From: Alphaproteobacteria bacterium
GTDB lineage: Bacteria > Pseudomonadota > Alphaproteobacteria > SMXQ01
Reading direction: 5' to 3'
DNA: 33,472 nt
Assembly: GCA_009380075.1 (NCBI GenBank)
Contig: WHSO01000036.1
Span: forward strand, 1 to 33,472
Shown in pieces: positions 4,786 to 8,350 of the stretch. Below the pieces are notes generated by a model. It saw only the letters and a program-made list of their open reading frames with translations, was not told where the DNA came from and searched no databases. How positions within the stretch are numbered: the stretch's first letter is position 1; the number at the start of each line of letters is the position of its first letter. The position numbers were made by a program, and so were the translations under genes.

Positions 4786-5892
4786 TCAGCCTTCCTTCTT
4801 CTTTTTCTTCTTTTTCTTGCCACCGGCGCGCTGCTGGGCGGCGGCCTTCTTGGCGTCGATGGCGCCCAGCACCTTGAGGCGCAGGTCCTCGTTCACGTCG
4901 ACGAGCTCGGCGACGAGCTTCTGCAGGTCCTCGCCGGTCATCGGATCGATGTCGGCGCGCTGCTTCTTCGCTTCCGCCATGAACTTGGCGTCCTTCAGCG
5001 TCGCCTCGAACGCGACGCGCAGCGCCTTGACCCGGTCGGCGGGCACGCCCTGGGCGACGGCGATGGGCCGGCCGACGACGACCGCCTTGGACACGTAGGT
5101 GAGGATCGCCGTTTCCTCCGGCGTCTTGCCGAGGTCCTTGAGCAGCGCCACGTCGGGCAGCGCCGGATCCTTCTCCAGCCCGACCTGGATCAGCGGGCGG
5201 ATCAGCTTCTTCGCGACCAGTTGCGGCGTGGCCGAAACCCAGCTCGCCCACGGGTTGGTGCCGCGCCCTTCGAGCTCGCCCTTTTCCATGGCGAAGTTGA
5301 TCTCGGTGCCGGATTCGTAGCCGTAGATGATCTTGAGCCTGGTGCCGAGCACGTTGTTGTAGACGGCGGGCAACTGGATCGAGGCGGACCCCGCGCCGGT
5401 GCCGCCGATGACCACGGTCTGCTTCTTCAGGTCCTCGACACTCTTCGCCTTGGACGTGTGCCAGACGACGAAAACCTGGTTCGACTTCGACATGTTGCCG
5501 ATCCAGTTGAACGCCTTCATGTCGGCCTGCAGCTTGTTGGTGAGCTTGAGGCCCTGGATCATCGGCAGCGCCTGGCTGACGATGGTCAAAATCGAACCAT
5601 CGCGCGGCGCCACCTTGGCGACGTAGTTTGCCGACTTGAGGCCGCCGCCGCCCGGCATGTTGACGTTGACCGCGCTCGGGTTGCCGGGGATGTGCCGGGG
5701 CATGTGCCGCATCAGCAGGCGGGCGTAGAGGTCGTAGCCCCCGCCCGCGGCCGTGCGGATGATCATCTTGACCTGCTTGCCCTTGTAGAAATCGGCGACC
5801 GGGTCGGCCGCGGCGGGCGAGGGCAGGAAAACCGGGACCAGCGCGAGCGCCAGCGCCGGCGCGACAAGAAGTGAACGGGAACCCGTCTTCAT
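4786..5892 (-). CDS. Tripartite tricarboxylate transporter (Bug/TctC) family substrate-binding protein with polylysine tail
   Basis: A 368-residue periplasmic receptor of the Bug/TctC type, which captures carboxylates or aromatic acids for TctAB permeases. A signal peptide is visible: basic MKTGSR start, hydrophobic core from residue 8, and PSPAAA|DP giving cleavage near residue 29. The mature start DFYKGKQVKMIIRTAAGGGYD and the later NMPGGGGLKSANY and GGTGAGSAS segments match the family. There is no TctA or TctB gene nearby, so the receptor is orphan in this window. The oddity is the last dozen residues: eight consecutive lysines (mixed AAG/AAA codons) then EG, absent from ordinary members. 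A GGGAG lies 8-12 nt before the ATG. The upstream gap holds a repeat; the ligand is unknown. Confidence 0.88.
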   Translation of the reverse strand: MKTGSRSLLVAPALALALVPVFLPSPAAADPVADFYKGKQVKMIIRTAAGGGYDLYARLLMRHMPRHIPGNPSAVNVNMPGGGGLKSANYVAKVAPRDGSILTIVSQALPMIQGLKLTNKLQADMKAFNWIGNMSKSNQVFVVWHTSKAKSVEDLKKQTVVIGGTGAGSASIQLPAVYNNVLGTRLKIIYGYESGTEINFAMEKGELEGRGTNPWASWVSATPQLVAKKLIRPLIQVGLEKDPALPDVALLKDLGKTPEETAILTYVSKAVVVGRPIAVAQGVPADRVKALRVAFEATLKDAKFMAEAKKQRADIDPMTGEDLQKLVAELVDVNEDLRLKVLGAIDAKKAAAQQRAGGKKKKKKKKEG

Positions 5893-6188: not shown

Positions 6189-7394
6189 CTACGTATCCAG
6201 CGTCTCCTTGGCGAACAGGGTCTCGGGCTCGTAGGGCGAGTCGATCAGGCCCTGGTCGTGGGAATACATGATGAAGCGCTCGAGGTTCTTGCGGTTGCGC
6301 TTGAACCCGTTTTCCCACGGATCGCGGACGAAGAGGTTGCGCTCCTCCTCGAAGTAGTGACGTCCCCAGGCGAGGCGCGCCCAGTTGGGATCCTCGTAGT
6401 AGGTCTCGGCAATGTCCTTGGCGCTGTTGAACATGTCGTAGACCGCCTTCGCCACCCAGGGATTCTTGTCCACCACTTCCTGGCGGATGGCGATGACGTG
6501 CATGATCGGGAAGTCGCCGACCTTCTCGAAGTAGTCGAGTTCCTCGGCCTTGCTGTCGGCGAACAGACGGCGCGCCGCCGTCTTGCCCGATACCACCGAG
6601 TGCGGCGGGTGGGGCAGGAAGAAGGCGTCGATCTCCTTGTTTTCGAGGGCGCGGCCGAGGTCCTGCCGGTCGCCGATATAGTCGAGCTTGACCCCCGGCT
6701 TGGTCTTGAACTTCACCTTTTCCTCGGTGGTCAGGATCCAGTGGATCGTCTCCCACGGCACGTCGTAATGGAACTTCATGTCGCCCTTGGCCAGCAGCGA
6801 CAGCGTCGTCTGGAACGACGACAGCGCCACCTTCTTGCCGACCAGGTCCTTCGGGTGCCAGTAGTTCGATTGGGGGTGCACCCACATCTGGCTCTGGCTG
6901 AACAGGCGGCGCGGGAAGACCGGGATTCCGGCGATGGGCATGCCGCGCCCCTTGGCCATGAGGAAGGTGGACATGGAAAACTCGGCGACGTCGAAATCGC
7001 CCTTGAGCATCCGCCCGTGGCGGTCGGTGCCATCGCGCAGCGTCACGCTCTGGCCGACCTGCATGACTTTGAGCTCGATCCCGTCGGGAACCTTCACCGT
7101 GTTGTCGAAGAACGGAAAATGGCGGTCGTACCGTTCGATCCCGATGGTGAGCCCGAGTTTGCCGGAGGCCGACGTCGTCTTCGTCCTGCCGACAGCCGCG
7201 GCATTTTTCCTTTTGCTGGCGGTGGAGACCTTCTTCCTCTTGCTCGCCGCGGAGGCTTTCTTCCTGGCCACGGAGGTTTTCTTCCTCTTGCGCGCCGCGG
7301 GGGCTTTCTTCCTTTTGCTGGCGGCGGAGGCCTTTTTCTTCTTGCTGGCGGCGGAGGCCTTTTTCTTGGTGCGTGTCTTGACGTTGCGGGCCAT
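6189..7394 (-). CDS. 4,5-dihydroxyphthalate decarboxylase-like / PBP2-fold protein with Lys/Ala-repeat N-terminus
   Basis: Residues from about 80 to 401 form a periplasmic-binding-protein-like domain of the dihydroxyphthalate-decarboxylase/NMT1 type. It opens LGLTIGIERYDRHFPFF and continues with DFDVAEFSMSTF, GIPVFPRRLFSQSQMWVH and DLVGKKVAL. Relatives are decarboxylases of 4,5-dihydroxyphthalate or solute receptors, so the reaction is not settled. Residues 1-79 are unlike that family: tandem nonapeptides of the KKKASAASK type, with 23 Lys and 9 Arg and no acidic residue, resembling histone-H1 or Hc1 tails. There is no signal peptide. A perfect AGGGAGG at 7404-7410 lies 9 nt before the ATG, so the tail is probably translated. 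The neighbouring receptor gene downstream also carries a lysine tail. Confidence 0.8.
   Translation of the reverse strand: MARNVKTRTKKKASAASKKKKASAASKRKKAPAARKRKKTSVARKKASAASKRKKVSTASKRKNAAAVGRTKTTSASGKLGLTIGIERYDRHFPFFDNTVKVPDGIELKVMQVGQSVTLRDGTDRHGRMLKGDFDVAEFSMSTFLMAKGRGMPIAGIPVFPRRLFSQSQMWVHPQSNYWHPKDLVGKKVALSSFQTTLSLLAKGDMKFHYDVPWETIHWILTTEEKVKFKTKPGVKLDYIGDRQDLGRALENKEIDAFFLPHPPHSVVSGKTAARRLFADSKAEELDYFEKVGDFPIMHVIAIRQEVVDKNPWVAKAVYDMFNSAKDIAETYYEDPNWARLAWGRHYFEEERNLFVRDPWENGFKRNRKNLERFIMYSHDQGLIDSPYEPETLFAKETLDT
7158..7367 (-). repeat. 27-bp coding minisatellite (nonapeptide repeats)
   Basis: Eight imperfect units encode residues 10-79 of the Lys/Ala-tailed protein. The first two units both read KKKASAASK. 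Later units vary (RKKAPAARK, RKKTSVARK, a shortened KASAASK, RKKVSTASK) and the last two are diverged. Identity falls from the N-terminal end inward. The 27-bp period keeps frame, so copy number could change without breaking the gene. Confidence 0.85.
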
Positions 7395-7403
7395 GGCTCG
7401 GTG

Positions 7404-7410
7404 CCTCCCT
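7404..7410 (-). promoter_or_regulatory. Ribosome binding site fixing the start of the Lys/Ala-tailed protein
   Basis: Read on the minus strand this is AGGGAGG, 9 nt before the ATG at 7394. It decides between a start that includes the basic repeat tail and a hypothetical internal start near residue 80, which lacks any comparable site. Confidence 0.7.
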
Positions 7411-7603: not shown

Positions 7604-8350
7604 ATGAAACTGAAGGACAAGGTCGCCATTGTCACCGGCGCCGGACGCAACATCGGCGAGGCGGTGTCCCATACCTTCGCGCGCGAAGGCGCGGCGGTCG
7701 CCGTGGTCGACCTCGACAAGTCCCGCGCCGAGACCGTCGCCGCCGACATCAAGAAGGAAGGCGGCAAGGCCGCCGCCTTCGTCGTCAACGTCGCCGACGA
7801 AGCCCAGGTCCAGAAGCTCATGAAGGACGTCGTCGCCGCCTTCGGGCGCATCGACGTCCTCGTCAACAACGTCGCCATTTCCGACAACAGGCACATCCTC
7901 GAAATCACCAAGGACGAATGGGACAAGGTGATCGCCGTGACGCTGACCGCGCCGTTCCTGATGGGCAAATATGCCGCCCAGCAGATGGTCGCCCAGGGCG
8001 GGGGCGGGAACATCCTCAATGTCGCCTCGACCTCGGGCTGGCGCGGGCGGCACCGGGCGCTCGCCTATACCTCGGCCAAGGGCGGCGTCATCAACCTGAC
8101 CCGCTCGATGGCGGTGCAGCTCGCGCCCCACAGGATCCGGGTCAATTCGATATCGCCCAACAAGATCGGCTCTCCCGTCGGCAAGGCGGATTTCGATCCC
8201 ACCCGTCCGGTGGTCAACCTCGCCGGGCGTACCGGCGTGCCCGAGGACATGGCCAAGGCGGTCCTGTTCATGGTGTCCGACGATTCCGACTTCGTCTGGG
8301 GCGAGAACCTGTTCCTCGACGGCGGCACCATGGCCATGGAAGTCACCTGA
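7604..8350 (+). CDS. SDR-family NAD(P)-dependent oxidoreductase
   Basis: A complete 248-residue short-chain dehydrogenase/reductase. The cofactor loop TGAGRNIG is at residues 11-18 and VVDLDKS follows, with an Asp after beta-2 favouring NAD(H). NNVA replaces the common NNAG. The catalytic Ser142 (NVASTSG), Tyr155 and Lys159 (AYTSAKGG) are present, and the C-terminus has the usual LDGG. The frame is open upstream, but the ATG at 7604 was chosen because GAGGGAG (7588-7594) precedes it and the TGAG motif then falls where expected. It is divergent from the Lys/Ala-tailed PBP2-like gene across 209 bp. It is probably part of the same degradative neighbourhood; the substrate is unknown. Confidence 0.92.
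   Translation: MKLKDKVAIVTGAGRNIGEAVSHTFAREGAAVAVVDLDKSRAETVAADIKKEGGKAAAFVVNVADEAQVQKLMKDVVAAFGRIDVLVNNVAISDNRHILEITKDEWDKVIAVTLTAPFLMGKYAAQQMVAQGGGGNILNVASTSGWRGRHRALAYTSAKGGVINLTRSMAVQLAPHRIRVNSISPNKIGSPVGKADFDPTRPVVNLAGRTGVPEDMAKAVLFMVSDDSDFVWGENLFLDGGTMAMEVT

Follow-up and report, generated by a model that had tools for sequence, protein, structure and literature searches.

The window analysed here, a stretch of 33,472 nucleotides, contains an open reading frame (ORF; 6189-7394, minus strand) that starts with ATG and encodes a protein of 401 aa, in which a lysine-rich N-terminal tail precedes a folded domain (Table 1). Downstream on that strand, after a gap of 296 bp, follows a gene for a TctC-like solute-binding protein with a K8 C-terminus, and a short-chain dehydrogenase (SDR) gene lies in divergent orientation. 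Reading of the antisense frame indicated that the SDR neighbour is apparently kept in some untailed relatives too, which suggests that the basic role is older than the tail. The genome holding the window gene is referred to as G000 and that of its sister species as G010; the genus is sampled by these two species only, each represented by a fragmented assembly. Loci L009 and L033 are the same G010 gene. G003 represents a second genus of the same family, and the family genomes compared make up the whole order as sampled.

Table 1. Positions of the features described in the text (window coordinates unless a locus is given).
Feature	Position	Strand	Basis
Poly-lysine tails at the C-terminus (K7-K11, immediately ahead of the stop) of exported solute-binding proteins	window 4786-5892 (-); G000 sites; L120-L145		
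Downstream TctC-like solute-binding protein, signal-peptide-like N-terminus, C-terminal GGKKKKKKKKEG	4786-5892	-	ORF list, Pfam, sequence read
Dihydroxyphthalate-decarboxylase-family domain, PBP2 fold, 322 aa + stop	6189-7157	-	phmmer, Foldseek, orthologues
Disordered N-terminal tail of 79 aa, rich in lysine and free of acidic residues, eight imperfect 9-aa blocks	7158-7394	-	sequence, TRF, AlphaFold2
Shine-Dalgarno-like GGGAGG upstream of ATG1	7404-7409	-	sequence read
Divergent short-chain dehydrogenase (SDR)	7604-8350	+	Pfam adh_short_C2 5.8e-56; kept in sister species (L033 2993-3811)
Tailed ring-hydroxylating dioxygenase beta subunits (two genera)	L164 410-1066 (-); L165 1003-1629 (-); L203		

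The tail (codons 1-79) contains 23 lysine and 9 arginine residues and no aspartate or glutamate, so that the eight imperfect nonapeptides and the 32 basic and zero acidic residues listed in the initial annotation were confirmed and its description of the tail as H1-like was borne out for composition. The blocks read, in order, KKKASAASK, KKKASAASK, RKKAPAARK, RKKTSVARK, (K)KASAASK, RKKVSTASK, RKNAAAVGR and TKTTSASGK, of which about six are clear, one of these having only 7 residues, while the other two are degenerate. The underlying DNA forms a 27-bp tandem array at 7200-7365, with the top TRF score in the window (143). In its best 60-residue stretch, the tailed ORF holds 21 lysines, compared with 14 in the adjoining poly-lysine solute-binding protein and at most 8 in any other ORF of the window. 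AlphaFold2, run with a 25-row alignment, predicted residues 1-71 to be disordered (pLDDT ~35) and the remainder to be folded, with a weak loop at 116-123. By inspection, the tail lacks a hydrophobic stretch. A Pfam profile search of the window tail returned no match, and the tail of the sister species scored 19.6 bits against HC2, below the curated cut-off of 40, so that membership in the Histone H1-like nucleoprotein (HC2/Hc1) family was not obtained by profile.

The folded domain was compared with solved structures using phmmer, which gave one strong match (9jp7; E 5e-37) covering residues 3-321 of the 322-aa domain. This nearest solved relative is the 4,5-dihydroxyphthalate decarboxylase of Comamonas testosteroni KF-1. 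In Foldseek, the AlphaFold2 model matched 9jp7 at E 6e-27 with a TMt of 0.79-0.83 and 28% sequence identity in the structural alignment; the four 9jp7 chains ranked first by ~14 orders of magnitude, with the next best family at E ~3e-12, followed by the distant PBP2 relatives SsuA, TauA and Thi5. Homology over the full length and a shared fold thus place the domain in the 4,5-dihydroxyphthalate decarboxylase family, and both searches uphold the annotated joining of the tail to a dihydroxyphthalate-decarboxylase/PBP2-like domain. The two proteins align over the whole domain and have in common the PBP2-like fold and the motifs YDR and FPIMH, as well as a comparable (I)D-x-F-x-x-P-x-PP segment. 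They differ in that the aligned part of 9jp7 is free of the lysine-rich tail and that the window subfamily, itself predicted to be enzymatic, is a distinct, well-conserved group of the family. Orthologues show 57-82% overall identity, and 15 members of the family are present in G000. By inspection, the orthologues, whose starts lie a few residues ahead of the first strand, carry no export signal; the window protein is therefore most probably a PBP2 protein of the enzyme type, located in the cytosol and with predicted decarboxylase-family activity, not a periplasmic receptor.

The GGGAGG motif sits 9 nt 5' of the ATG of the window gene. In-frame ATG, GTG or TTG codons near the start are limited to ATG1, GTG42, GTG100 and ATG111, with none between codons 42 and 100. 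In the orthologue alignment, the conserved domain extends from about residue 80, with the first invariant positions at 88-99, so that residues 80-111 already belong to it. Because no in-frame start is available between codons 42 and 100, the whole domain needs at least residues 42-79, which are lysine-rich as well. The distribution of start codons thus shows that translation is obligate for about half of the tail at least, and the initial annotation, which took the ribosome site directly upstream as a sign that the tail is made, holds at least for this part. It is very unlikely, and already nearly refuted, that translation truly begins with the domain, leaving the tail unmade, as might be supposed from the orthologues outside the genus, all of which start at the domain. 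A mis-called start was rejected given that the window gene has no ATG, GTG or TTG at this position; moreover, the sister gene also begins with a lysine-rich frame, and its final in-frame start ahead of the domain, a GTG, falls within the tail. The check named in the initial annotation had a mixed outcome: homologues outside the genus begin at about residue 80 with a start codon of their own, but since the sister species is tailed too, the tail represents a genus-level addition.

The G010 orthologue, whose domain is 88% identical to that of the window protein, carries a differing tail of its own (MASKPARKTAKKSAAKKARKKAPARKTVKKKAPARKAARKKAAAKKAPARRAPAKKATGRGK; 62 aa, 28 K/R, no D/E). The tail sequences of the two species diverge strongly; the sister tail nevertheless keeps 45% K/R, no acidic residue occurs in the 141 tail codons combined, and both genes retain an intact reading frame and start. 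Elsewhere in the family, the best start of the orthologues lies just ahead of the first strand, and no lysine-rich frame precedes it. No tail was found at further alpha- and gammaproteobacterial loci with a readable N-terminus (L059, a partial match whose N-terminus cannot be judged, lies outside this comparison), in four close matches read at class level (9 of 385 genomes matched) or on seven other G000 family members whose upstream frames were read. In a maximum-likelihood tree of the domain, the two tailed proteins group together with a support of 100/99 and tail presence needs a single change, which indicates that the tail was most likely gained once and recently, on the branch leading to this genus. 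Four of the orthologue loci (L042, L045, L035 and L044) stem from public records that bear the name Klebsiella pneumoniae or Rhizobium sp. Q54; their orthologues group with other lineages, the L035 domain is identical to that of the family member G001, and the names of these records look unreliable.

Searches with both tails detected no free-standing H1-like gene as a tail source, the matches being limited to TopA, RsfS and a dioxygenase beta subunit. The G010 tails of the decarboxylase-family protein and the dioxygenase share ~78% DNA identity over 80 bp, with a score above those of all 200 codon-shuffles. The decarboxylase-family tails of G000 and G010 stand out less when compared with each other, as 7 of 200 shuffles score as high. 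These values hint that tails may have been exchanged between genes, with the evidence weakened by the similar composition of the repeats.

When the sister-species tail was used as a query on G000 and G010, four other sites were obtained. Two of them represent one gene in both genomes, encoding a ring-hydroxylating dioxygenase beta subunit (Pfam Ring_hydroxyl_B, 7e-12 and 1e-12) with an N-terminal H1-like tail of about 56-66 residues. This gene begins two bases after the stop of the alpha-subunit gene (identified by Rieske and Ring_hydroxyl_A in Pfam), and the cluster also includes another decarboxylase-family gene in both species. The same type of tail is found on the orthologue from the second genus, G003 (92 residues, 36 lysines, no acidic residue). 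The orthologues in G001, G004, G005 and G009 (three other genera of the family) are untailed, and relatives in other families of the class have no lysine-rich tail. Translation of the beta-subunit tail is less certain than that of the window gene's, because an ATG or TTG lies at or near the domain start and could give an untailed product. The remaining two sites both belong to G010 and fall in RsfS and at the C-terminus of TopA (the latter named by reading), which are ordinary places for lysine-rich tails, their partners being the ribosome and DNA. The RsfS (ribosomal silencing factor; L166 1498-2109, plus strand) has a long lysine-rich N-terminal extension that matches HC2 at 1.6e-7, below the curated cut-off.

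The tail is thus ordinary in kind; its partner is unexpected, its gain recent, and a second tailed enzyme exists. We regard it with moderate confidence as a multivalent electrostatic tether of low specificity for cytosolic enzymes of aromatic catabolism, with tethering, target, multivalency, co-localisation and substrate all predicted. A conserved cytosolic 4,5-dihydroxyphthalate decarboxylase-family enzyme would have gained a disordered polycationic tail in the ancestor of the genus. The four chains of 9jp7 may point to a tetramer, in which case each particle would present several tails; these would attach to a polyanion of the cell (polyphosphate, RNA or DNA) or to the inner, acidic face of the membrane and thereby set the position of the enzyme. 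As the dioxygenase beta subunit in the same genomes is similarly tailed, the tails would bring the enzymes of aromatic-acid breakdown to one place, and their role may lie in tethering a pathway and not in forming chromatin. Both the K/R content and the lack of acidic residues retained by the sister tail despite its divergence count in favour, as do the obligate translation of part of the window tail, its gain on one branch, the tailed dioxygenase beta subunits, the similarity between the two G010 tails and the TopA and RsfS tails of the sister genome; the conservation of the enzyme without the tail counts against and implies that its chemistry is independent of it. As a precedent, the H1-like tails of AlgP and PhaF have been proposed to connect non-nucleoid domains both to DNA and to granules of polyphosphate or PHA (PMC9239181). 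Those Pseudomonas proteins likewise join a disordered tail rich in lysine and alanine to a partner from outside the nucleoid, but their tails are C-terminal, longer and of the KPAA type, and are attached to granule-binding or predicted helical domains instead of a catabolic enzyme. The HC2 family (PF07382) and the TopA and RsfS tails resemble the window tail in composition, and the G010 tails match HC2 weakly; the domain fused to the window tail, by contrast, is neither a nucleic-acid nor a ribosome protein. Tethering by such tails would be a simple, recently evolved way of placing a catabolic pathway in the cell and would carry the PhaF/AlgP principle over from storage granules to enzymes of metabolism. 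The tailed and untailed versions of one enzyme in close relatives provide a natural control.

The tethering proposed in the initial annotation is plausible, and its main rival is a near-neutral expansion, in which a K/A repeat grew by slippage or was copied from a tailed gene and is tolerated with no dedicated role. This origin, which we consider rather unlikely, would account for the 27-bp tandem array, the restriction of the tail on this enzyme to one genus, the differing tail sequences of the two species and the possible copying between genes in G010. It is harder to reconcile with the charge retained across the diverged tails, with the intact frame and start in both species and with the presence of a tail, in two genera, on another enzyme from this kind of pathway. 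In third place, the tail might bind anionic lipids of the cytoplasmic membrane and keep the enzyme near uptake systems, in parallel to the C-terminal poly-lysine of solute-binding proteins. The proximity of the exported TctC-like protein and the concentration of the genome's poly-lysine runs on solute-binding proteins speak for such a membrane tether, but the tail has no amphipathic or hydrophobic anchor, its A/S/P-rich, H1-like composition is that of nucleic-acid or polyphosphate binders, and the two types of tail differ (poly-K versus K/A repeats), which makes it improbable. The sensor or ligand-responsive chromatin-like protein suggested initially found no support. Such a protein, whose domain would sense a small molecule while the tail moves the protein on DNA, is suggested by the fusion of a PBP2 fold to an H1-like tail; it is extremely unlikely given that the closest relative is an enzyme, that the domain is conserved in untailed relatives, which make up most of the orthologues, and that no sequence-specific DNA-binding domain was detected by Pfam search.

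Poly-lysine runs were located throughout G000 with the pattern K4-(0 to 12 nt)-K3 (K7-type run), which gave 25 distinct sites, all within genes for solute-binding proteins: 23 encode TctC-like proteins and the other two extracellular proteins of Pfam SBP_bac families. The 17 sites that were read directly end no more than a few residues from the stop, and the others were placed by coordinates. Among relatives in the family, K7 runs near a stop occur in four of the five genera, and the genes read are solute-binding-like, including one for a phosphonate-binding-type protein; most other Alphaproteobacteria sampled have few or no K7 runs. A limited search of the full-text literature yielded no description of poly-lysine C-termini on solute-binding proteins, and nothing direct on these proteins or on lysine-tailed enzymes. 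The poly-lysine tails differ from the N-terminal H1-like tails in composition and compartment and would pose the same tethering question for the periplasm. It is a quite doubtful extension of the tether reading that lysine tails serve this lineage as a general addressing device, in which N-terminal H1-like tails would gather cytosolic enzymes of aromatic catabolism and C-terminal poly-lysine would keep many solute-binding proteins of the periplasm on an anionic surface, jointly forming an electrostatically organised assembly for uptake and breakdown on either side of the membrane. The 3.5 Mb genome (G000) encodes ~120 TctC-like solute-binding proteins, an expansion of the Bordetella 'Bug' kind.
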